From Verrucomicrobiales bacterium (GTDB lineage Bacteria > Verrucomicrobiota > Verrucomicrobiia > Limisphaerales > CANJXF01), in NCBI GenBank assembly GCA_947478865.1, contig CANJXF010000046.1, forward strand, positions 1 to 33,225: DNA of 33,225 nt. The letters run 5' to 3'. Position numbers and translations under genes: made by a program. Positions 10,325 through 32,535 of this stretch are shown piece by piece. Under the pieces are notes generated by a model. The model saw only the letters and a list, made by a program, of their open reading frames with translations. It had not been told where the DNA came from and did no database searches. Numbering within the stretch: the first letter of the stretch is position 1; each line of letters begins with the position of its first letter.

Positions 10325-11329
10325 ATGATTCTCGTCACTGGTGCTGCCGGCTTTATCGGCTTTCACGTCTGTCTCCATCTGCTGCGCCAAGGCCACTCCG
10401 TGCAGGGACTCGACAACGTTAGCGACTACTACGACGTGCGCTTGAAAAAGGCCCGACTTGAGCAGCTTCACGCCCATCCGGCTTTTGTTTTCCATCATGT
10501 CGATCTCGTTGACCAGGCCGCCGTCGCACAGGTTTTCTCAGAAAACCAGCCGTCGCACGTGATCCACCTGGCCGCCCAAGCGGGAGTTCGCTATTCGACG
10601 ATTAATCCGAGGGCTTACACTGACAGCAACATCACGGGGTTCCTGCATATCTTGGAATGCTGCCGCCATCACGGGGTTAAGCACCTGGTTTATGCCTCCT
10701 CCAGCTCAGTATATGGATTGAATACTTCGATGCCGTTCTCGGTGCACGATAATGTGGATCATCCGGTGAGCCTTTACGCCGCGACGAAGAAAGCGAACGA
10801 GCTGATGGCGCACAGCTACAGTCATCTCTATGCGCTTCCGACTACGGGGCTCCGTTTTTTCACCGTGTACGGGCCGTGGGGCCGGCCGGACATGGCGCTG
10901 TTTCTCTTCACCAAGGCAATTCTCGCGGGATCGCCGATCGATGTGTTCAACGCAGGGCGTATGAAACGGGACTTCACTTACATTGATGACATCGTAGAAG
11001 GAGTCATTCGCCTCATCGACCGCCCTCCGGCGCCCAGTTCCAACTGGCGCACGGATCGTCCTGACAGCGCGACCAGCCAAGCCCCCTATCGGCTCTACAA
11101 TATAGGCAATCATTCCCCTGTGGAGTTGCTGAGGTTCATCGAAATTCTCGAGACCTGCTTGGGTAAAAAAGCTGTCAGGCGAATGCTGCCTGCCCAAGCT
11201 GGAGACATGGTGGACACTGCAGCCGACGTTTCCGACCTGACCCGGGATATCGGATTCGAACCCAACACATCGATCGAAACGGGCGTCCGCCTTTTCGTGG
11301 AATGGTACCGGAACTATTATGGAGCCTGA
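10325..11329 (+). CDS. UDP-glucuronate 4-epimerase-like SDR
   Basis: This 334-residue extended SDR starts with TGAAGFIG (5-12, NAD-binding) and [12 protein letters not shown], and has the catalytic Tyr-x3-Lys at Y151/K155. [12 protein letters not shown] and the following region through [12 protein letters not shown] are the hallmark of UDP-glucuronate 4-epimerases of the CapI/LpsL type, which interconvert UDP-glucuronate and UDP-galacturonate. The length fits the family. A 114-base gap with no clear promoter separates it from the upstream GT4 gene, and its end overlaps the next gene by 11 bases. Together with the AsnB-type enzyme it suggests a uronic acid, perhaps amidated, in the polymer; the specificity call rests on motif recognition only. 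Confidence 0.82.
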
Positions 11330-12746
11330 ATCCGCCGCTTCCAGCCAGACTCAACAGCACCTCGCCCAAGTGCGCGAGTTCTACAATTCTGCCCCGACCG
11401 ATCCAAACTGGGCAACACGAGGCTACAGAGAACTTCTGGCGCATTACTATAATCTTCTGATCCCAAGCAACGCCTCGGTCCTTGAGATTGGATGTGGGTG
11501 CGGTGAACTTCTGGCGCGAATTCGCGCCCGCCGAAAAGTCGGCATCGATCTTTCCGAGACGCAAATTGCCGCCGCTCGAGTTCGGGCGCCCGACGCCGAA
11601 TTTCTCGTCCAAGTCGGTGAATTTCTCGATCTCGACGAACGGTTCGACTGCATCGTCATCTCCGATACGCTCAATCTCGCCGCCGATGTGCAGCTGCTTT
11701 TCGAACGGCTGCACCGTGTCTCTCATCCGGCGACGCGCCTTCTCCTAAACTTTCATTCCGCCCTCTGGCGTCCGGTTTTCACGCTGGCCCGATGGATCGG
11801 GATTAAGTCTCCCGAACCGCAAAGCAGCTGGCTCGCGACCTCTGACGTCCGAAACCTTCTCGAACTAGCGAACTGGAGCCCGCTCACTTTTCAGGCGCGC
11901 CTCGTGATCCCGTTTTCCTGCGGCGGTCTCGAACGCCTCGTGAACCGGTGGCTGGCTCCAGTCGTGAACTGGCTTTGCCTGACCGTTTTTTGCGTCGCCC
12001 GGCCAATCCCCCCCCGCAAGCCCAGACCGCTCACGGTCTCAATCGTCATCCCCGCGCGCAATGAAGCGGGCAACATTGAAGCCGCCGTGCGCCGCACTCC
12101 GCAAATGGGAGCCGGTATCGAACTTATTTTTGTCGAGGGGCACTCGCGCGACAATACCTGGGCGGAAATCCAGCGGATCGAGAGAGAGAACCCCTCCCTC
12201 AAGATCAAAATTATGCAACAGACCGGCCGCGGCAAAGGCGACGCTGTCCGCCTGGGTTTCAAGGCCGCAACCGGGGACGTGCTAATGATCCTCGACGCCG
12301 ATCTGACTATGCCGCCCGAAGAATTGCCGAAATTCTACGAGATCATCGCCAGCGGCCGGGCCGAATTCGCGAACGGCTGCCGCCTCGTTTATCCCATGGA
12401 CGAAAAAGCGATGCAGTTTTTGAATCTGTGTGCGAACAAGACATTCGGCCTGATCTTTACCTGGCTTCTGGGCCAGCCCGTCAAGGACACCCTCTGTGGC
12501 ACCAAAGTATTGAGTCGCGCGCACTATCTCCAAATCGCGGAAAACCGTTCCTACTTCGGTGATTTCGACCCTTTCGGTGACTTCGACCTCCTTTTCGGCG
12601 CCGCCAAGTTGAATCTAAAAATCGCCGATGTTCCGATCCGATATCGCGAGCGAACTTACGGCACCACGAATATCCAACGCTGGAAACACGGTTGGCTTCT
12701 CCTGCGCATGGTGATGTTTGCCGCCCGCAAATTGAAGTTCATCTGA
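11319..12746 (+). CDS. methyltransferase-GT2 fusion protein
   Basis: The 475-residue product is a two-domain protein. Residues about 1-230 form a class I SAM methyltransferase with an intact motif I ([10 protein letters not shown] at 54-63) and DLSE as motif post-I. From about 239 a GT2 domain follows ([16 protein letters not shown], then DADL with Asp326 and Asp328), ending with a conserved block [10 protein letters not shown], a pair of GDFD repeats and RERTYGTT. The GT2 part resembles DPM1-like enzymes. A second protein of the same architecture is encoded at 31002-32465 on the minus strand. The first ATG, overlapping the epimerase gene by 11 bases, gives the complete methyltransferase fold. 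The fusion suggests that methylation and glycosyl transfer act on the same intermediate, but this is inferred. Confidence 0.82.
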
Positions 12747-12780: not shown

Positions 12781-14523
12781 ATGACTACATCCCTCGCAAA
12801 TTCCCAACCGCTCGCCAACGCTGGAGACTGGAAGCGCCTGGCCGGGGTCGGATCGCTCGGCTTTGTCTTGCTTTTGGGACGCTTCAACTGGGGCTCCAAC
12901 CTGAAGCTAGCCGTCCAAGGCTACACGATGTCGGGCTTCATGTTTTTACTGCTCCTGATCGGAAGTTTTGCGTACGTCTGCGCGCTGGGCGAGTGCAACC
13001 GAATTTTTTGGCGGTGGCTGACCGTCGCTGCTGTCCTGCTCAATTTTCCTCTCCATTGGACGTTCCTCCACAGGTTTTACTATACAGACCGCTTTCCCCA
13101 ATTTTACGCCCGCCAACCTCATTTCATTTCTGAGTGGATCGGCGCGTCTCCCCCATGGACGCTGACGGACTCATTTTTCTGCATACTGCTCGGCAGCGGC
13201 ATCGCGATCTTTGCCCTCTGGAGTTGGACGCAAAGACGCAAGCGTCCTTCTTGGAGGATCAAAACAAGCGGCACGATTTTTGGGCTCTTCGTATTGATTC
13301 TAGCGCAAGTCTGGCTTCATAATTCTGGGCGCTCGCCGTACTCCTACGTCCCTCACTTCGAGCAGCCAGCCGACGCCGACTATACCTCGACCCTGTCGCT
13401 GCTTCCGAACGATCACGGTCTGGCCAATGCCGACGTCAATTACTATACTCGCCTTGAGGAATTCTTCCTAGGCACCCGAGTGGATACTCCCACTCTTTTC
13501 GTCCGACGGGCCTTTACATTCTATCTCTCGGGAAACCTCAGCTATTTCATCGGACCTTTTTTTAGTTTCCTCATCATCAACACGCTGTTGTGGACCGCAG
13601 CGGTCGTCGCCTTTTATCACCTCGCTCGCCGACTTGCGGATTCGCGGCTGGCACTTTACGCGGCCCTGTTCATGGCCGGAAGCCCTGGTTTCATCATGTT
13701 TGCGGCCCAGCCGATGAGTTACTTTTCCGGCTACGCAGCGGTCATCTTCATGCTCTATGGACTCGAGCGGATGCTGTCCGCAGATTCCGCCAAGCCGGGC
13801 CTGACCGTCGCCGCGATGGGCTGCATTCTGGCAACCGCCATGCTGACCACCGACCTCTTCGTCTGGCTTCCGGCGGTGGTTCTCTTCGCGGTGGCCCTAC
13901 GCCGATCATGGCAGCGCACGGCGCTCTCGTGCATCTTGGCGCTGGGCATATACGGGGCCTATTTGGGACTGGTCTTCGGGCTTCTTGCGCTGCCCAAGGA
14001 CGATTTAAACAGCAAGCAACTTAATGAAGCCGTGGCGGGTGCGCTCCAGCTGCTGCGGACTGCGCCAAGCCACCAACTTTATCTTTTGTTCACGGACGGA
14101 CTGGGGATTTTCATCAAGCAACTCGCGCACGTCTTCTTTATAATCCCGGTGGCGCTGGCCTGCCTAGGATTGTTCCTAGCGGAAATAAATCCGAAGGCGC
14201 GACGAGTCGCGGCGGTTTGTCTACTTCCCGCGTTTGGCACTTTTTTTGTCATGCATTTGGGCCAGTCGTACCTCGGCACGTTGCCCCGCTTCAACTTCAT
14301 GTCGTATCCGGGAATCTATCTGTTGGCGGGCGGCTTTCTGGCATGGGGCGAAACGCTCGGCACCAGAGAAGGTAGGGGGGGGGGGGGGGTTAGGCCCGCA
14401 CGAATCGTATGCATTGGAATCGCGGCGGGATGCCTTGTGATCAGCAACCTCGACGCTTTCGGCATATTTCAAAGCCCTTACTATTACTTCTATTACTCCA
14501 ACGGCGGTTTTTTTCCAAAATAG
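12781..14523 (+). CDS. polytopic membrane protein, GT-C-like, with G15 tract
   Basis: The 580-residue protein has roughly a dozen hydrophobic helices from about residue 18 to the end and loops rich in aromatic residues, such as HRFYYTDRFPQFYARQ near 100. A long non-membrane loop at about 190-245 contains several acidic and aromatic residues. The overall pattern resembles integral membrane glycosyltransferases of the GT-C fold (GT39/ArnT/PMT style), which use polyprenyl-phosphate sugars, but I see no decisive motif and would accept 'unknown membrane protein'. Residues 532-537 are encoded by a run of 15 G and form a glycine stretch just before the last membrane helix (about 541-562). The gene begins 34 bases after the fusion-protein gene. 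Confidence 0.7.
   Translation: MTTSLANSQPLANAGDWKRLAGVGSLGFVLLLGRFNWGSNLKLAVQGYTMSGFMFLLLLIGSFAYVCALGECNRIFWRWLTVAAVLLNFPLHWTFLHRFYYTDRFPQFYARQPHFISEWIGASPPWTLTDSFFCILLGSGIAIFALWSWTQRRKRPSWRIKTSGTIFGLFVLILAQVWLHNSGRSPYSYVPHFEQPADADYTSTLSLLPNDHGLANADVNYYTRLEEFFLGTRVDTPTLFVRRAFTFYLSGNLSYFIGPFFSFLIINTLLWTAAVVAFYHLARRLADSRLALYAALFMAGSPGFIMFAAQPMSYFSGYAAVIFMLYGLERMLSADSAKPGLTVAAMGCILATAMLTTDLFVWLPAVVLFAVALRRSWQRTALSCILALGIYGAYLGLVFGLLALPKDDLNSKQLNEAVAGALQLLRTAPSHQLYLLFTDGLGIFIKQLAHVFFIIPVALACLGLFLAEINPKARRVAAVCLLPAFGTFFVMHLGQSYLGTLPRFNFMSYPGIYLLAGGFLAWGETLGTREGRGGGGVRPARIVCIGIAAGCLVISNLDAFGIFQSPYYYFYYSNGGFFPK
14375..14389 (+). repeat. homopolymer of 15 G inside a membrane-protein gene
   Basis: Fifteen consecutive G encode part of Arg, four Gly and the first base of Val. 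The gene is in frame with exactly 15. Loss of one G would lead to TGA at 14438-14440 and gain of one to TAG at 14391-14393. Either change removes the last predicted membrane helix and the tail of the protein encoded at 12781-14523. Confidence 0.9.
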
Positions 14524-14574: not shown

Positions 14575-16236
14575 ATGCGCCTATCCGTCTCAGGTCAGAT
14601 CCTTGCACCTTTGGTTTACGGAATTGCCGCGATTGCCTTGGGGCTTTCCTTTTTTTCCGCTTGGCAAATCCGGGCGGCGCTGCCGAATGAGCCCCTGAGC
14701 TGGCCGGATTCCCTCTCTTATCTTTCTCCGGGGATTGTTTATGAATCGACGGGCATTTGGGTCGCGAGCGTTCGCCAGTTTCTCTATCCACTCTTCCTCT
14801 ACGCCATTGCTCACCTGAGCGGAAAGTCTTCGACCATCGCCTCCGTGCAGCATTGGGCGGCCCTGTTGAGCGGTTTGGTGCTGCTGGTTGCCTGGCTCGT
14901 TTTGTTGAATCCCATCCGCCCGTTCCGCCTGCTGCATGCAGTATGCAGCGCGCTGGGTGTGGTACTAGTGTGCGTGATGTGGCATTCACCTGTGCTGCTG
15001 CTCTATGAATGCTATATCATGCCAGAAATTTTCTTCTTGGTGGGGTCGTCGGTCGAACTTTTACTGATCGCACTTCTGGCTTGGGAACTTGCCCGCCCCG
15101 TGATCAGGCCACTTCCGTACGGCATTGTCCTTGCCGCTTTGATCATCTTGAGTGTTGGCCTGTACTATATCATGCCTCGTTGGGGGCTTTCGGCAACGAT
15201 CATGCCGGCAGTGGCCCTCCTCGCCTCCTGGTTCCGCCGCTACCCACTCAAAACCATCCTGGTTCCGGCGGCGCTTGGGTGCATGGTCGCCTTCGTCCTG
15301 TTTCCCCTTCCGGAAGCATTACTTAGAAAACATGCCACTCCGAATTCTCCCTATTTCATGCAGATGCATTTGTTCGCCATCCATGCGAATATCATCAGCC
15401 GCGAACTGCAGCTGGAAGGGTCGAATCCGGCCTCCCATTTTGACCCTGTCTTGTTGCGGCGCTGTGACGAAGCGATTCAACGCGAGCTGCAGCGTAGCAG
15501 GGCGAATCCCACGAGCAACTTTCCCTGGCCGACCCTGGGCTTCAGGCCCGATATGCTGATTTACGAGGACGACTCGGTTATCAGCATTGTCGCGAAGTAC
15601 TACACGGGAGACGGCGTGGCCGCAGCGCGTTTCTTCACGCATTTCTATCAAGCTGCCTGGCTGCATCAACCGTATGCCATGCTCTCCAAAGTTTCCAACG
15701 AACTGAGGACCTCCTATTACTCCAGCCCTAGCCGAGGTTTTGCTCTCAGCCGCTATGAATACCCGCTACTGCAATTCGTCCAGGAAAGCCTGACGGTTGC
15801 CCGCGAACCGGGACGCGCCTCCATGCTCCAGCAATCTGTCGTGTGGAAAAACTACGACAAGCACCTGGCCGAAATTAGCAGCGGCGGACGAATGGAGCAC
15901 ACGCCGGCAGGTTTATTTATCGAGCGGGGATTTGGGCTTTTTTTCCTGCCTTTGGTCTTGCTAGTCCTGGTGCTGACCGCCGTCGCGACATTCATTCAAC
16001 GTCGCTCCGCCGAACCCGCTCCCGAATTGCTCGTATGCCTCGTTACGGTCTGCTGGCTGCTACCGGCCGCGGGGAGCAATCTCACGGTCTCCATCATTCA
16101 TTCCATCTGGCACCAACGCTACTTGGAAACGAATTTTGTGCTTTCGTTAACCAATGGTTTTGCACTCGTCGCCGCGGCGCTGGTCTGTGCGACGATTTGG
16201 ATCGGCCGCCTGACTTCCAAAAAGACAGCGACCTGA
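14575..16236 (+). CDS. polytopic membrane protein, possible GT-C glycosyltransferase
   Basis: The 553-residue product has an N-terminal membrane helix (about 10-32) and then a first outside loop with PDSLSYLSPGIVYES, in the position where GT-C enzymes carry their acidic catalytic residue. About ten further helices follow up to about residue 255. A long soluble loop (about 260-440) rich in Arg, Glu and Tyr is followed by three more helices. This arrangement is seen in hypothetical membrane proteins of O-antigen loci. I do not recognise a named family. It begins 51 bases after the previous membrane-protein gene, and no promoter or terminator is visible between them, so co-transcription is likely. 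Transfer of a polyprenyl-linked sugar or assembly of the polymer is possible but unproven. Confidence 0.7.
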   Translation: MRLSVSGQILAPLVYGIAAIALGLSFFSAWQIRAALPNEPLSWPDSLSYLSPGIVYESTGIWVASVRQFLYPLFLYAIAHLSGKSSTIASVQHWAALLSGLVLLVAWLVLLNPIRPFRLLHAVCSALGVVLVCVMWHSPVLLLYECYIMPEIFFLVGSSVELLLIALLAWELARPVIRPLPYGIVLAALIILSVGLYYIMPRWGLSATIMPAVALLASWFRRYPLKTILVPAALGCMVAFVLFPLPEALLRKHATPNSPYFMQMHLFAIHANIISRELQLEGSNPASHFDPVLLRRCDEAIQRELQRSRANPTSNFPWPTLGFRPDMLIYEDDSVISIVAKYYTGDGVAAARFFTHFYQAAWLHQPYAMLSKVSNELRTSYYSSPSRGFALSRYEYPLLQFVQESLTVAREPGRASMLQQSVVWKNYDKHLAEISSGGRMEHTPAGLFIERGFGLFFLPLVLLVLVLTAVATFIQRRSAEPAPELLVCLVTVCWLLPAAGSNLTVSIIHSIWHQRYLETNFVLSLTNGFALVAAALVCATIWIGRLTSKKTAT

Positions 16237-16318
16237 ACGTTCGCCCGTGCTCTCCGAGAAGAATGTCAACTCCTTGGCGACGACACCCACAACCAAACCG
16301 CCTCCGGCCGCTTTATCG

Positions 16319-17299
16319 ATGAAGCCAAAGCACCTCGCGCTCATCGCATTCAAACTTCTGCTCTCGGTTTTCTTGATGTGGCTGGTGCTTCGGCACATTG
16401 ATTTTTCATCGGTCGTTGAGCGCCTGCATCGTGTCCATCTTGTTTATCTAGCCGTTGGCTTCGGTCTTACTTTCACGGTTATTGCCGTCTCCGCGCGACG
16501 TTGGGAGAAATTGGCCCGAGGATTGATCCCGTTCGGGCCCGCCTTACGGTACACGTGGATCGGTTTGTTCTACGGCGCTTTGTTGCCGGGTGGCATTTCG
16601 GGCGATGTGGTGAAAGGCGCGGCCCTGGCGCTCAAAGATCGTTCAACCCGCGTCGCCTTGCTTCCCGGCTCAATCCTGATGGATCGCATCGTCGGGTTCG
16701 CCGCCCTTTTGATCTTTTTCACCTTGGGAGCGGCGTGGTATGCCCTCTCTCCGGGACTTGAATCTAAACTCCGCAGCGCGGCCTGGATCGGTGTCGCCGG
16801 AGGCGCGACCGCGCTTATCGCGGCCGGGGCGCTGCTGTCAGCAACGGTCCAGGTGCGCCTGCGAAAGCTCGCGGAATTTTGGCCGCAACGACTCGGAAGA
16901 AATTCATTGCTCCAACTTGGCACGACTCTTTCCGATTATTCGCGGGAACCGCAACTCCTCCTCTACACCTTTTCCCTGAGTTTATTCGCGCACGCGCTGA
17001 ACGTCGTGCTCTTCCTCTGTTTTTTCTCCGCCCTTGATGTCTCCGTCGGGCCTTTTGATGCTATGTTCATGTATTCCGGGCTTTCCGTGCTGGTGATGGT
17101 GCCCATCAGCATTTCCGCGATTGGCGTGCGAGACTGGTTTGCGCTGCTTTATTTCCAGCACCTTCACCTCCCGGCGGAAGCCGGTGTGGCATTCTCTTGG
17201 CTCAGCCTACTGTTCGGGCTGCTTGTGGCCGCGGTGGGCGGACTGATCCAAGGCTACGAGTTTTTCCTGAAATCACGCTCGTCTGTAATTGTGCCATGA
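16319..17299 (+). CDS. LPG-synthase-TM/flippase-like integral membrane protein
   Basis: The 326-residue protein has about eight membrane helices and the features of the lysylphosphatidylglycerol synthase transmembrane family (PF03706, also called UPF0104, AglD-like). These are an N-terminal helix ending LRHIDFSS, then ARRWEKLARG, and the conserved GALLPGGISGDVVKG block, followed by DRIVGFAAL. Members without the synthase domain are commonly found in polysaccharide and glycolipid loci and are thought to act as lipid carriers or flippases, though this is not settled. I chose ATG 16319 because the first helix starts directly after it. A GTG at 16247 would add 24 Thr/Pro-rich residues. Neither has a clear ribosome binding site. 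The stop overlaps the next ATG. Confidence 0.8.
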   Translation: MKPKHLALIAFKLLLSVFLMWLVLRHIDFSSVVERLHRVHLVYLAVGFGLTFTVIAVSARRWEKLARGLIPFGPALRYTWIGLFYGALLPGGISGDVVKGAALALKDRSTRVALLPGSILMDRIVGFAALLIFFTLGAAWYALSPGLESKLRSAAWIGVAGGATALIAAGALLSATVQVRLRKLAEFWPQRLGRNSLLQLGTTLSDYSREPQLLLYTFSLSLFAHALNVVLFLCFFSALDVSVGPFDAMFMYSGLSVLVMVPISISAIGVRDWFALLYFQHLHLPAEAGVAFSWLSLLFGLLVAAVGGLIQGYEFFLKSRSSVIVP

Positions 17300-19506
17300 G
17301 CCTGCTCGTTCCTTTCGTCCACGCCGTAATCGTCTTTGGAGTGCCGATCCTTTTCGGCTGGGTCGTGCTGCGCCGGCTCGTGCGAGAGAACGACCTGTTA
17401 ATCCTCGTCCCAGGCTCGTTCGTGGTGGGAATCGCCGCACATATGAGCGGGCTGAACGAGCTGCGCCACTATATGGAAATGAATGTCGCGCTTTGGACAT
17501 TCTATAAGCTGCTGCTGGCTGCCACACTCTCGATTGTCGTTTTCAGCCAGAAGCCACGGAGCCCGCCCACCGTGATTCGCACTATGCGATCAGCATGGCG
17601 CCTCCTTCTCGTCGGCGGAGGGGCCGTCGTTTCGTCGGTGTATTTTGGCATTCCTGCGTTCAAAGGCGTTTTGAACGACGCGTGGTGGGGCCATTATCCG
17701 GCGGCCATCGAGATCCAGACGATCGCGCGTTTTCCCCTGCATCATTTTTTGGCCTTGGACGACCCGCTTTACTATCATTACGGACCGGATCTGGTCGCTG
17801 CGTCATGGGCATTTCTATTGGATCTATCCGTCCAACAAGCCTACGCGCTCCTCATCACAACCTTGGCTCCCGCGGCGTTTCTTCTCGGTGTCGGCTTGGT
17901 CGCTCGTTTCTCGAAACGGTTCTGGTCCGGATTGCTGGCGGGGGTTTTTGCGATCGTGGGGGGCAATCTATGCTTCCTCTACATGGCCCAGGGCGAATTC
18001 GCGCATCCGTTGACTTTCCTCAAAGCGCTTAACAGCCAGACCATGCAGGGATTCAACCAGATGGTTTTTACGCCGTCCCATGCCGTCGGCATGCCTCTCA
18101 CGTTGGCGATCATCGCCATCTTTCGCCATTTTATCGCGCGTTTTACTCTTTCCCTCGCCGCGATCCTAGGTCTCACGCTAGCAACACTCTCGCTCGTAGC
18201 CGAGTGGTATTTTTTCCCTTTGGTGGCAGCCCTGACGATCGTGTCCCTGATCGAAGTATGGGAACGCTTTGGGGTCAAACGTGAGCGTTTACTACAGTTC
18301 TCACTCCGACTGCTTCCAATCGTCATCGCGTTGAGTTGGGCGATTTTCAACAATTCATACATCGCCGGCACTTTCGGAAAATACTGGATGCGTTACGGGA
18401 CGTTCTCGGAGCAGGCGAGCCGTCGCCTGTCGATGTCCCTCCTCCGCGCTCAGCCGTCCAGCGTCGAATTGGAGGTCCTGCCCCCGCTGGAAAAATCCCC
18501 GCCTTCTCGACTGACCTCACTTACTCCTCTACTCCTAAATCTCAGTCATCTCGGGTCAGTTCCCACTTGGGAATCGGCTGGCGCCAACGAGAATCCTTAT
18601 ATCTCGATGCTCAGTTCCCGCTTTCTGGCCGAGTGCATACCCGTCGTCATCATTGGGCTACCTTTGGGTTTGCTCCGCGCTTGGCGACGACACAAACGTA
18701 TCGCCTTGGTGATCGGTTTGGCGGGACTCATTTCTGCCGCACCTCCGATCTTGCTAGATTGGGACTATCGGTCGGTGGACTTTCTTCGCTTTTTCACCGG
18801 TACATTTATTTGTTCCGCAATTCTTTTAGGCTGGCTGGTGGGCGAATGGCTTTTTTCTCAAAAAAAAGCCGTCCGCTGTTTGGGCTGGGCTGTGGCTGTT
18901 TGCGCTTTAATCAATCCCGTGGCCCTCGGTTGGATCGGTTTGATGCCCTCGACGCTTGAAACCGTCAAAGCGGTGAGCTTCAGCGGAGCGTCCTTGGCGG
19001 ACACGGTTAAAAAACAAGCCTCGCCGACCACCGCCCAGACCTCAGCAGCTCCGGCTGTCTCGGTTCCGACCCCAACATCCGCTCAGGATACTCCACAGCT
19101 CCGCAATGCCGTTTATGAAACTCTGGCGACACGAGCGGGGCTTTTCCTGCTGCCTATCACGCACGGCGAGCAGCGGGCGATTGTGCTGGTCTCCGAGAAT
19201 GAACTACCCCCGCTCAAGACATTTCCGGAGTGGATGAAATTTACGACCCTAGCGCGAACGCCCGTGCCCATCGGCTGGTACTGGGAGGCCTCTTCTTACG
19301 CGGACTACTATCGCAAAGCGGTACGAACGCTTTCCCGAGAATCCCTGATCGCTCTCGGCGCGCAGTGGATTGTCGTTACAAATATTTTCGACCACAAACT
19401 TCCGCCCGATGTCCTCGACGCCTTGAAAGATCGCACTCGATTCATTCCCGTCAGCACCAGCATTGAAGGCAGGTATTTTCTTACACTTTATCGCGTGGTC
19501 GAATAA
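17296..19506 (+). CDS. large polytopic membrane protein, GT-C-like, with soluble C-terminal domain
   Basis: Starting at the ATG that overlaps the previous stop (ATGA), the product has 736 residues. The first about 560 hold many hydrophobic helices. An early outside loop has NDAWWGHYPAAIEIQ and DDPLYYHYGPDLVAA, an acidic and aromatic pattern seen in GT-C-like membrane glycosyltransferases. A flexible Ala/Pro/Thr linker (about 572-598) leads to a soluble domain of about 130 residues with the ending typical of an extracytoplasmic alpha/beta module (ALGAQWIVV...). I cannot name the family with certainty. It lies between a flippase-like gene and a GT4 gene with overlaps on both sides, so it belongs to the assembly pathway. 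Possible roles are sugar transfer outside the membrane or polymerisation. Confidence 0.72.
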   Translation: MSLLVPFVHAVIVFGVPILFGWVVLRRLVRENDLLILVPGSFVVGIAAHMSGLNELRHYMEMNVALWTFYKLLLAATLSIVVFSQKPRSPPTVIRTMRSAWRLLLVGGGAVVSSVYFGIPAFKGVLNDAWWGHYPAAIEIQTIARFPLHHFLALDDPLYYHYGPDLVAASWAFLLDLSVQQAYALLITTLAPAAFLLGVGLVARFSKRFWSGLLAGVFAIVGGNLCFLYMAQGEFAHPLTFLKALNSQTMQGFNQMVFTPSHAVGMPLTLAIIAIFRHFIARFTLSLAAILGLTLATLSLVAEWYFFPLVAALTIVSLIEVWERFGVKRERLLQFSLRLLPIVIALSWAIFNNSYIAGTFGKYWMRYGTFSEQASRRLSMSLLRAQPSSVELEVLPPLEKSPPSRLTSLTPLLLNLSHLGSVPTWESAGANENPYISMLSSRFLAECIPVVIIGLPLGLLRAWRRHKRIALVIGLAGLISAAPPILLDWDYRSVDFLRFFTGTFICSAILLGWLVGEWLFSQKKAVRCLGWAVAVCALINPVALGWIGLMPSTLETVKAVSFSGASLADTVKKQASPTTAQTSAAPAVSVPTPTSAQDTPQLRNAVYETLATRAGLFLLPITHGEQRAIVLVSENELPPLKTFPEWMKFTTLARTPVPIGWYWEASSYADYYRKAVRTLSRESLIALGAQWIVVTNIFDHKLPPDVLDALKDRTRFIPVSTSIEGRYFLTLYRVVE

Positions 19507-20672
19507 TGCGCGCCTCTCCCATTCCTGCCTCCACGCAACGCAACTCTTCTGGTCCTGTTCTCTGCCATGTTCTGGATAGCCTGGGCCGAGGCGGCACTCA
19601 GCGCTGCCTCGTCTATCTGGTGCGTGGACTCGCTGCCCGCGGCTATACTCAGATCGTGGTGGCGCTCAACGACGATACTGACCCCGAGATTTTATCCAAG
19701 CTGAGTGAAAACGCTCGGGTGGTTGTGATCGGAAAACCCGCTCTCATCCTTGGGTGGGGAATTGTTCGCCTCGGTTGGCTGTTACAGCAACACCGCGTGG
19801 ACTTGGTCCAAACCTATCTGCGCTATGGAGACACTTTCGGAAGATTGGTCGCGCGAGTCATGCGGATTCCGGTGATTTTCTCTTCGATCCGTGCGCGCAA
19901 TCTCGACAAACCTCGGTGGCAATTCCGGCTGGATCGATTTACGGTACGCTGGGCGGTCAAGGTCATCTTCAACAGCCGAAATGTAATCGCTTTTTCGGAA
20001 CGGCACGAAGGCGTGCCGTCAAACAAAGTGCTTTATATCCCCAACGGGGTGGCTCTCGACCAGCGCCTTCCGCCGGACCGAGTCGGCCGGCGCGCGTCGA
20101 TTGGGCAGTCTCACGACTGCATTTTAATCCTCTCCGTGGGACGTCTGGCGCCCCAAAAAGGCCACGATGATCTCCTAGCCGCTTTCGCTGCAATCGTTCC
20201 GCGGCATCCGCGCGCCCACCTTGCAATTCTGGGCGAAGGTTCCGAGCGGATTCGTTTGGAGAAATTCATACAACGGCATGGATTGGAGTCGCGCGTAACC
20301 CTACTCGGAGCGCGGGACGATGTTACGGAATGGCTCGCCGTCGCAGACCTTTTCGTACTCGCGTCTCACTATGAGGGAATGCCCAACGCCCTCATGGAGG
20401 CGATGGCCGAGGGCTTGCCTGTGGTGGCAACGGAAGCAGACGGGAATTCCGAACTGATCACCCATCGTCAATCCGGGCTGCTCGTCCCGATCGCGCAAAT
20501 CGATCGACTGATCGAAGCCATGGACGAATCGCTCCTCAACCCGGTTTGGGCGAAGACCCTCGGAAACGCTGCGGCCGCGGTAATGAAAGAACAATATTCC
20601 GTGGAAAAAATGGTGGACGGCTACGACTCAGTCTATCGTCAGGCCCTAGCGGTGCCCACACAGCTGTCTTAG
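19506..20672 (+). CDS. GT4 family glycosyltransferase
   Basis: The 388-residue protein shows the GT-B fold. The N-terminal domain contains HVLDSLGRGGTQRCL (glycine loop at about 20-34). The C-terminal domain has LSVGRLAPQKGHDDLL and the E-x7-E motif in YEGMPNALMEAMAEGLPVVAT (Glu290 and Glu298). It resembles GT4 enzymes of lipopolysaccharide and capsule loci that work with retention of configuration. The ATG shares its A with the TAA of the upstream gene (TAATG), so it is translationally coupled. It closes the long + strand run of genes; an IS3 remnant begins about 85 bases downstream. Sugar specificity is unknown. Confidence 0.88.
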   Translation: MRASPIPASTQRNSSGPVLCHVLDSLGRGGTQRCLVYLVRGLAARGYTQIVVALNDDTDPEILSKLSENARVVVIGKPALILGWGIVRLGWLLQQHRVDLVQTYLRYGDTFGRLVARVMRIPVIFSSIRARNLDKPRWQFRLDRFTVRWAVKVIFNSRNVIAFSERHEGVPSNKVLYIPNGVALDQRLPPDRVGRRASIGQSHDCILILSVGRLAPQKGHDDLLAAFAAIVPRHPRAHLAILGEGSERIRLEKFIQRHGLESRVTLLGARDDVTEWLAVADLFVLASHYEGMPNALMEAMAEGLPVVATEADGNSELITHRQSGLLVPIAQIDRLIEAMDESLLNPVWAKTLGNAAAAVMKEQYSVEKMVDGYDSVYRQALAVPTQLS

Positions 20673-28149: not shown

Positions 28150-28479
28150 GCGATGAACATTCAGGTGCGCAAAGCGGTGAATGGGGGGGGCACTGGTGAG
28201 CCCGCCGCTCCCGCCCCCAAGCTATGGAAATCAGCGAGGCGTACCATCCTGCCACGGCAGGGCCTGAACCGCCCGTTGTATACAGAGCCCCGCGCTCGCG
28301 GGGCCGCGAGGCCTGCAAATCACGGGACGATGCGTCGATGTCGTCTTCCCACGGCACGACGGTGAAGTTCCTGCCCGTGCTCCACGGATACTTTCACTGC
28401 CCTAGGACAACGTGGCGAGCTGCCGGATGGCTAGACCCAAGATCGCGGCGGCCATCTCGGTGCCGGTCGCGCTGCATTG

Positions 28480-31001: not shown

Positions 31002-32465
31002 TCACAGCCGCATCTTCAGTTTTTTGAAACCGGCCCAGCAGAAGGCCAGCATGATGAGGCCGTTCTTGAAGCGTTTGTTCATCTTCGTCGTGCCGTAGAC
31101 CCGCTCCTGATAATGCACGGGCAGGTCGGAAATTCGCAGGTTTAGTTTCGACGCGCCGAAGAGCAGCTCGTAATCGCCCCAGCGGTCCTCCTTGCCCCAC
31201 GTGTCGATCAACGGCCGGATGCGCTGCCAGTCGTTTCGCCAAATCACTTTGGTCCCGCACAGCGTGTCCTTCACCCGCTCGCCGAGGAGAAACGTGAAGG
31301 CCCAGCTGAAAAACTGATTCCCTATCATGTTCGCCAGCTTCATCGCCTCCCGAGGTACGGGGTAAACCATGCGGCTCCCATTCACGAACTCCGCGCGATT
31401 CGTCGCGAGGACTTCGAGAAAATACGGCAGCTCTTCCGGCATCACCGCGAGATCGGCGTCGAGAATCATCAGCACGTCGCACGTCGCCGCATCGAAACCG
31501 GTGTAAACATTCCGCGCTTTGCAGATGCCCGGGCCCGCCACGAGTTTGATGTCACGCTGCGGATAAAGCGCCCGCATGCGTTCGATTTCCTCCGCCGTGC
31601 CATCGGTGCTCTTGTCGTCGCAGAAAATAATCTCGGTGTGACAGCCCAACTCAGGAATTCGCTCCACCGCAGGTTGAATGTTGCCGCGCTCGTTCTTGCA
31701 GGGAATCACCACCGACACACTCAACTCCGCCGGCGCCCTCGCAAAACCGCGCGGCCGCGCCACCAACACGGAAATAAACGACAGCCGGTTAAACAACGGC
31801 AACGCGCCGATCACGCGATTGAGCAGAAACGAAACGACCGGAATGTTTTTCGGGAAGGTCGCGACGCGGTACGTTTTGAGCCATTCGAAGCCCGCGAGGT
31901 TCAACAAGCCCTTGAGGTCGCCCTCCGACAACCAGCTCTGCTCTTCCTGCACCGGTTTGAAACCCAGCCACGCGGCCAGGCCGACGATCGGTTCCCAGAG
32001 GTGATTGTAAGTGTAGATTAAAACCCGCGTCCCGCGCTCGCAGCCCGCTTGCAGATTTTGCAGCGCGCGCTGGACGTCGACCGTGTCGCCGATGTTCGCC
32101 ACCACAATGTAGTCGAATTTTTCGTCGGCAACGAACTGCTCCGGATCGGCCACGCGATAATCCCACTGCGGATTGAGCTTCGCCGCTTCCGCCGCGAGTT
32201 CCGGCGTGAGCTCCACGCCGACGCCCCGCTGCGGATTCACCGCGGTGAGAAATTGCCCTAGGTCGGAGCGAATCGAGAGCACCCGTTTGCCCGGTTCGAT
32301 CAGGAACCTGAACAGACGGGAGATCGATTCGTAGTAGTAACGGTTTTTCTCCACCCACGCTTTTCGATTCGGCGCGAGCCGGGCTTGCAGGGCGCGAATC
32401 GTCTCCCGGCGCGCTTGCAACGCCGCCGGACCCCACAGCATTCCCTCATTTGTATCTTCAGCCAT
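31002..32465 (-). CDS. methyltransferase-like/GT2 fusion protein, second copy type
   Basis: The 487-residue product has the same architecture as the protein at 11319-12746. An N-terminal SAM-methyltransferase-like domain (about 40-235) precedes a GT2 domain from about 248 (VSVVIPCKNERGNI, CDDKSTDGT, DADL with Asp336/Asp338), ending with [26 protein letters not shown] and ERVYGTTKM. Its motif I reads RVLSIRSDLGQF (61-72) in place of the glycine-rich EIGCGCGE, so SAM binding may be weakened or lost. I prefer ATG 32465 (MAEDTNEG); the frame is open to ATG 32534, which would place the start almost at the edge of the repeat element. It probably glycosylates a lipid carrier or glycan. Confidence 0.82.
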   Translation of the reverse strand: MAEDTNEGMLWGPAALQARRETIRALQARLAPNRKAWVEKNRYYYESISRLFRFLIEPGKRVLSIRSDLGQFLTAVNPQRGVGVELTPELAAEAAKLNPQWDYRVADPEQFVADEKFDYIVVANIGDTVDVQRALQNLQAGCERGTRVLIYTYNHLWEPIVGLAAWLGFKPVQEEQSWLSEGDLKGLLNLAGFEWLKTYRVATFPKNIPVVSFLLNRVIGALPLFNRLSFISVLVARPRGFARAPAELSVSVVIPCKNERGNIQPAVERIPELGCHTEIIFCDDKSTDGTAEEIERMRALYPQRDIKLVAGPGICKARNVYTGFDAATCDVLMILDADLAVMPEELPYFLEVLATNRAEFVNGSRMVYPVPREAMKLANMIGNQFFSWAFTFLLGERVKDTLCGTKVIWRNDWQRIRPLIDTWGKEDRWGDYELLFGASKLNLRISDLPVHYQERVYGTTKMNKRFKNGLIMLAFCWAGFKKLKMRL

Positions 32466-32535
32466 GCGGCGGCGATAGAGCAGAATGGCCAAGTTGGAGC
32501 AAGGCCGGTCCCGAACGAGGGGCGCGAATCTCATC

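Follow-up and report, generated by a model that had tools for sequence, protein, structure and literature searches.

Does a run of 15 guanines, located in a surface-glycan cluster within the gene for a membrane protein, act as a switch? In Campylobacter and Neisseria, poly-G and poly-C tracts in surface-glycan genes are contingency loci, where slipped-strand mispairing results in translational phase variation. A preliminary description of the DNA analysed here proposed the same role for a G15 tract. The window, meaning the whole stretch of 33,225 bases that was analysed, is contig C46 of a 4.40 Mb genome in 114 contigs that is 97% complete. The RpoB of this genome is nearest to those of the Verrucomicrobia MAGs AV4 (89%) and Centralia_MAG_692 (87%, partial), and the host is therefore a Verrucomicrobiota MAG, for which the same relatives suggest a soil origin. 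From its sequence characteristics, the G15 tract plausibly functions as a random on/off switch of the kind known from other bacteria.

The G15 tract and its surroundings

The tract has exactly 15 guanines on the forward strand, lies in frame inside a 580-aa open reading frame, as first described, and is placed at 92% of the gene length (Table 1). Its codons (AGG GGG GGG GGG GGG GTT) encode GGGG within a short Arg-rich hydrophilic loop, TREGRGGGGVRPAR. The claim that such a run is far beyond chance is borne out, as only 0.01-0.05 G/C runs of at least 15 nt are expected per genome (0.045 with independent bases or 0.01 with a first-order Markov model over 4.40 Mb), and 0.0003 within the window. 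The tract is also longer than the roughly 8-9 nt from which a homopolymer of a contingency locus can slip. The contig is a surface-glycan cluster; it contains epimerase, GT2, GT4 and LPG_synthase_TM genes, together with several multi-pass membrane proteins. Fusions of a methyltransferase with a GT2 domain occur twice on the contig, on opposite strands, at 11319-12746 and at 31002-32534, the latter by an eye reading of the translation.

Table 1. Coordinates of the G15 tract, its neighbourhood and the other tract-bearing features. Locations with a contig prefix lie elsewhere in the same genome; all others are positions in the window.
Feature	Location	Strand	Remarks
NAD-dependent sugar epimerase/dehydratase	10325..11329	+	PF01370; neighbour in surface-glycan locus
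Methyltransferase + GT2 glycosyltransferase fusion	11319..12746	+	PF00535, PF13847; neighbour
C8 run where the methyltransferase meets the GT2 domain	12009..12016	+	inside ORF 11319-12746; gene intact
580-aa polytopic membrane protein, weakly GT-C/PMT_2-like by sequence	12781..14523	+	ATG start; carries G15
G15 homopolymer	14375..14389	+	codons 532-537 of 580 (R-G-G-G-G-V), inside ORF 12781-14523
Segment lost out of frame	14390..14523	+	last predicted membrane helix (~residues 540-559) and Tyr-rich tail
553-aa multi-pass membrane protein	14575..16236	+	without family match; start ~50 bases past the stop of the tract gene
LPG_synthase_TM family membrane protein	16247..17299	+	PF03706, E = 5.7e-30; neighbour
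GT4-type glycosyltransferase	19506..20672	+	PF00534; neighbour
G8 run	28183..28190	+	gene context unconvincing
Sulfatase/LTA-synthase-like gene	C2:11636-11644		frame break exactly at G9; Sulfatase profile 1-117 before tract, 141-301 after
Kelch gene	C24:39079		frame break exactly at G9; kelch repeats (propeller) on both sides
Na/Ca-exchanger-like gene	C59:26650		frame break exactly at G9; halves match orthologues
G10 between perfect TTGACA and TATAAT boxes	C15:61773-61782		element 61764-61797
CRISPR array, ten repeats of ~36 nt	C21:59627-60270		repeat GCTTTGCCTTGATTCCAATTAC-G8-CAAATT

The tract gene and the effect of tract length

The gene had been described as membrane glycosyltransferase-like; it has many hydrophobic segments, and the glycosyltransferase part finds faint support. 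In particular, residues 260-388 match PF13231 (PMT_2) with E = 5.5e-4 and 20.6 bits versus a curated cut-off of 26.1, which leaves the protein outside the family and, on sequence, only weakly GT-C/PMT_2-like. The family-profile search matched no solved structure to it, and its predicted model (pLDDT 44, obtained without relatives) was too poor for a fold search. Orthologue searches that covered 20 relatives, 320 genomes of the order as well as a collection of genome contigs found nothing beyond distant matches to residues 213-399; the distant relatives, in seven genomes of the order, are 581-645 aa long and 23-26% identical, and their C-terminal part differs.

Downstream of the tract, the remaining 44 codons have a coding log-odds of +3.0 in the frame of the ORF, versus -1.4 and -6.4, and they encode a hydrophobic segment with a hydropathy peak at 545-554, so that the two flanks look like a single gene. 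The assignment of the last helix also made use of the secondary structure of the low-confidence model. A tract of 15 G gives the 580-aa protein; one of 16 G runs straight into a TAG and yields 537 aa, and one of 14 G leads to a TGA some 50 bases further on and yields 552 aa. More generally, whenever the tract length is not divisible by three, the product is 536-537 or 552-553 aa long. The expectation that a change of one base would stop translation within some 50 bases, with loss of the last helix and the tail, is thus upheld, and at the sequence level the gain or loss of a single unit is predicted to alter the product.

Frame breaks at G/C runs across the genome

All G/C runs of at least 7 nt in the genome were retrieved and assigned to genes. 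About 57 were observed versus 519-996 expected, a roughly 10-fold deficit, indicating that long G runs are avoided. There are 27 runs of at least 8 nt (14 of length 8, nine of 9 and one of 10, then 15, 20 and 56); when the CRISPR repeats are left out, about 30 runs of length 7, seven of 8, seven of 9 and one of 10 are counted, followed by the same 15, 20 and 56. The C20 run is part of a noncoding inverted repeat.

The reading frame was broken at 0 of 24 coding G7 runs and 0 of 5 coding G8 runs, together 0 of 29, versus 3 of 6 coding runs of at least 9 nt (p = 0.003). The intact longer runs are those of an LPG_synthase_TM gene (contig C1), a Bro-N gene (contig C8) and the G15 gene. The automatic frame-break rule, which also flagged 3 of 30 G7 loci in relatives, was not relied on alone, and each of the three breaks was therefore verified by domains or orthologues (Table 1); for the Na/Ca-exchanger-like gene, each half is about 60% identical to orthologues that have both in one frame of ~330-390 aa. 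With three of six broken, a thin sample, the frame state at longer tracts looks close to random, as for unstable tracts, and instability of G runs of at least 9 nt is likely in this genome. The G9 frame breaks could, alternatively, be consensus errors or signs of decaying genes. A/T runs of at least 9 nt, taken as a control, are nearly all outside genes or at gene ends; the single clear coding case, in a glpD-like gene, is intact, and they are too few for statistics.

The preliminary description asked whether other surface genes bear G or C runs of at least 9 nt. Such runs are indeed present in LPG_synthase_TM-like, sulfatase/LTA-synthase-like, kelch and Na/Ca-exchanger-like genes and in the promoter of an FG-GAP gene. 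Among the seven genes with G tracts of at least 9 nt, one of which is a promoter tract, six encode envelope or secreted proteins, versus 10 of 25 genes with G7-G8 runs (p = 0.08); one of the seven is the phage-type Bro-N gene. This gene contains a perfect palindrome, G9-CAAATTG-C9 (C8:92829-92853), whose core, GGGGGGGGCAAATT, recurs in the host's own CRISPR repeat. Separately, a mutL homologue bears two G/C runs of 7 (C37:4037 and 5065), where a length change could shift mismatch repair and, hence, slippage rates.

CRISPR repeats and a promoter-spacer tract

The central G run of the ten CRISPR repeats (C21:59633-60250) has lengths of 9, 7, 8, 8, 9, 8, 8, 8, 8 and 8, and 22 flanking bases are identical in 10 of 10 repeats. 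The repeats copy one another; therefore, changes in G-run length have outpaced substitutions. These differences could come from replication slippage, slippage at spacer uptake or read error. A possible cas2-like ORF, read by eye, follows the array on the opposite strand.

Further, a G10 tract occupies a predicted promoter spacer, and about 60 bp beyond it a gene for a secreted FG-GAP/TIG protein with a signal peptide probably starts. Among 313 genomes of the order, a promoter of the TTGAC-G8-TATAAT type was found only in the host and one other genome. Two features set the tract apart from the spacers of Neisseria porA and Chlamydia lpxC: it is a locus separate from G15, and its boxes are 22 bp apart in the assembly, exceeding the usual -35/-10 spacer of 16-18 bp. 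It resembles them in that a homopolymer fills the promoter spacer, namely the poly-G through which porA undergoes promoter-type phase variation (PMC3639595) and the poly-A of lpxC, for which homopolymer phase variation has been proposed (PMC4514472). If it works, the G10 tract would, by analogy, be a switch of the porA type.

Long G runs in related genomes

The preliminary description regarded such a switch as out of the ordinary for this kind of organism, a view that the relatives do not favour. Of 313 genomes examined in the order, 135 contain G runs of at least 12 nt, many at contig ends (in some genomes only there), many intergenic and some in genes. In particular, two species of one genus have a G13 (L055:1502-1514) and a G22 (L086:1991-2012) at the same site in front of orthologous genes for a PKD/Ig-like secreted protein. 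In G035/G036, the alignment sets the tract upstream of the likely start rather than in the coding part. Homopolymer phase variation has, moreover, already been proposed within the same superphylum, for capsule genes of Akkermansia (PMC3048395) and in Chlamydia (PMC4514472).

G9 runs were also sampled in relatives, where a frame break at the tract was found in 0 of 26 runs called coding by the rule, versus 3 of 5 in the host (p = 0.003, 24 counted). In this sample, the G9 runs give no sign of an order-wide system. Given the 135 genomes with long runs and the unbroken G9s of relatives, long G runs appear ordinary in the order and frame breaks peculiar to the host genome. In the orthologue of the Na/Ca-exchanger-like gene in G263 (L296), a G9 of its own lies in frame within the same variable loop.

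Discussion

Like the contingency loci of Campylobacter and Neisseria, G15 is a long poly-G tract within a coding gene that belongs to a surface-glycan cluster, a change of one base truncates the protein, and the genome has further G tracts, some of them at frame breaks. Unlike those loci, whose tracts are near the 5' end or the middle of the gene, G15 is at the 3' end; it is known from one consensus sequence, and its host is a Verrucomicrobiota MAG that is probably free-living. Classical on/off tracts are usually placed so that a frameshift abolishes all function. A closer parallel in phylogeny is Akkermansia muciniphila, of the same phylum, with 17 genes containing homopolymer runs longer than 8 nt and with G8 and C10 runs in capsule genes, from which phase variation was likewise proposed on sequence alone (PMC3048395). 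The G15 run is much longer than those of Akkermansia, and in its genome three other genes lose their reading frame at the tract.

We consider it about an even call that G15, placed in a loop that tolerates indels, is prone to slippage and acts as a selected switch. The tract far exceeds chance expectation, G runs are otherwise avoided in this genome, the frame is intact on both sides of the tract and one base more or less truncates the protein. The length-dependent frame breaks, the CRISPR G-run differences, the C15 promoter tract and the G13 and G22 upstream tracts of relatives are consistent with such a switch. The phase-variation proposal is therefore supported in one part, the instability of tract length in this genome, and weakened in another: the position of G15 at the far 3' end makes functional loss on frameshift uncertain, tracts are not significantly enriched in surface genes, and a phage-type gene is among the tract genes.

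An alternative, which we regard as possible, is that G15 is an unstable but neutral expansion in a glycine-tolerant loop with no selected switch, its frame being kept by ordinary purifying selection or a tract near the C-terminus being of little consequence. The G15 loop is indeed hydrophilic, between predicted helices and close to the 3' end. In the Na/Ca-exchanger-like gene, orthologues differ in the sequence and length of the loop that holds the G9, and since the G263 orthologue has its G9 in that loop too, G tracts appear to arise in tolerant loops; G runs of at least 12 nt are, further, frequent across the order, in many cases between genes. However, G15 tracts mutate fast in known systems, so that a neutral one would be expected to turn up frequently in a shortened, out-of-frame state, and the avoidance of G runs throughout the genome speaks for a cost of long ones that have no use. 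It is unlikely that G15, or its length, is a sequencing or assembly artefact, where two-colour poly-G read-through would have lengthened a tract that is in truth shorter or of another length, and the G9 breaks would be consensus errors. This concern arises from contig C102, whose final 56 bases are G56 (L037:9050-9105), resembling poly-G read tails, and from the contig-end poly-G that is common in related MAGs (L094, L058, L084), probably two-colour sequencing artefacts in published MAGs; NextSeq-type instruments also call homopolymers of 8 less reliably (PMC11140927). Unlike the C102 run, G15 is neither at a contig end nor between unrelated flanks: it lies within the contig, 14 kb away from the nearer end, and its flanks are the two halves of a single gene in one frame. 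Coding G7 and G8 runs of the host are all intact, and the sampled relatives have no frame break at their coding G9 runs.

In the proposed switch, replication would cause G15 to gain or lose single Gs. A length that is a multiple of three, such as the 15 of the assembly, would give the full protein (the 'on' state), and other lengths a protein without its last membrane helix and tail, so that individual cells would flip randomly between the full-length and the truncated form and, probably, between two surface-glycan states. Here we infer that tract length varies between cells, that truncation inactivates the protein, that selection acts on the switch and that the protein is linked to glycan structure. 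The genome probably has a small set of G-tract contingency loci, with G15 among them. A broader proposal, which we put forward tentatively, is a genome-wide contingency system that would combine a promoter-spacer tract with tracts inside the coding parts of genes for surface glycans, the envelope and secreted proteins, where the CRISPR repeats would record slippage like a clock and the G15 gene would be the most mutable member.

Homopolymer phase variation has been studied mainly in host-adapted bacteria. If G15 and its companion loci do switch, a probably soil-living member of the Verrucomicrobiota would be bet-hedging its surface glycans, perhaps against phages or grazers.
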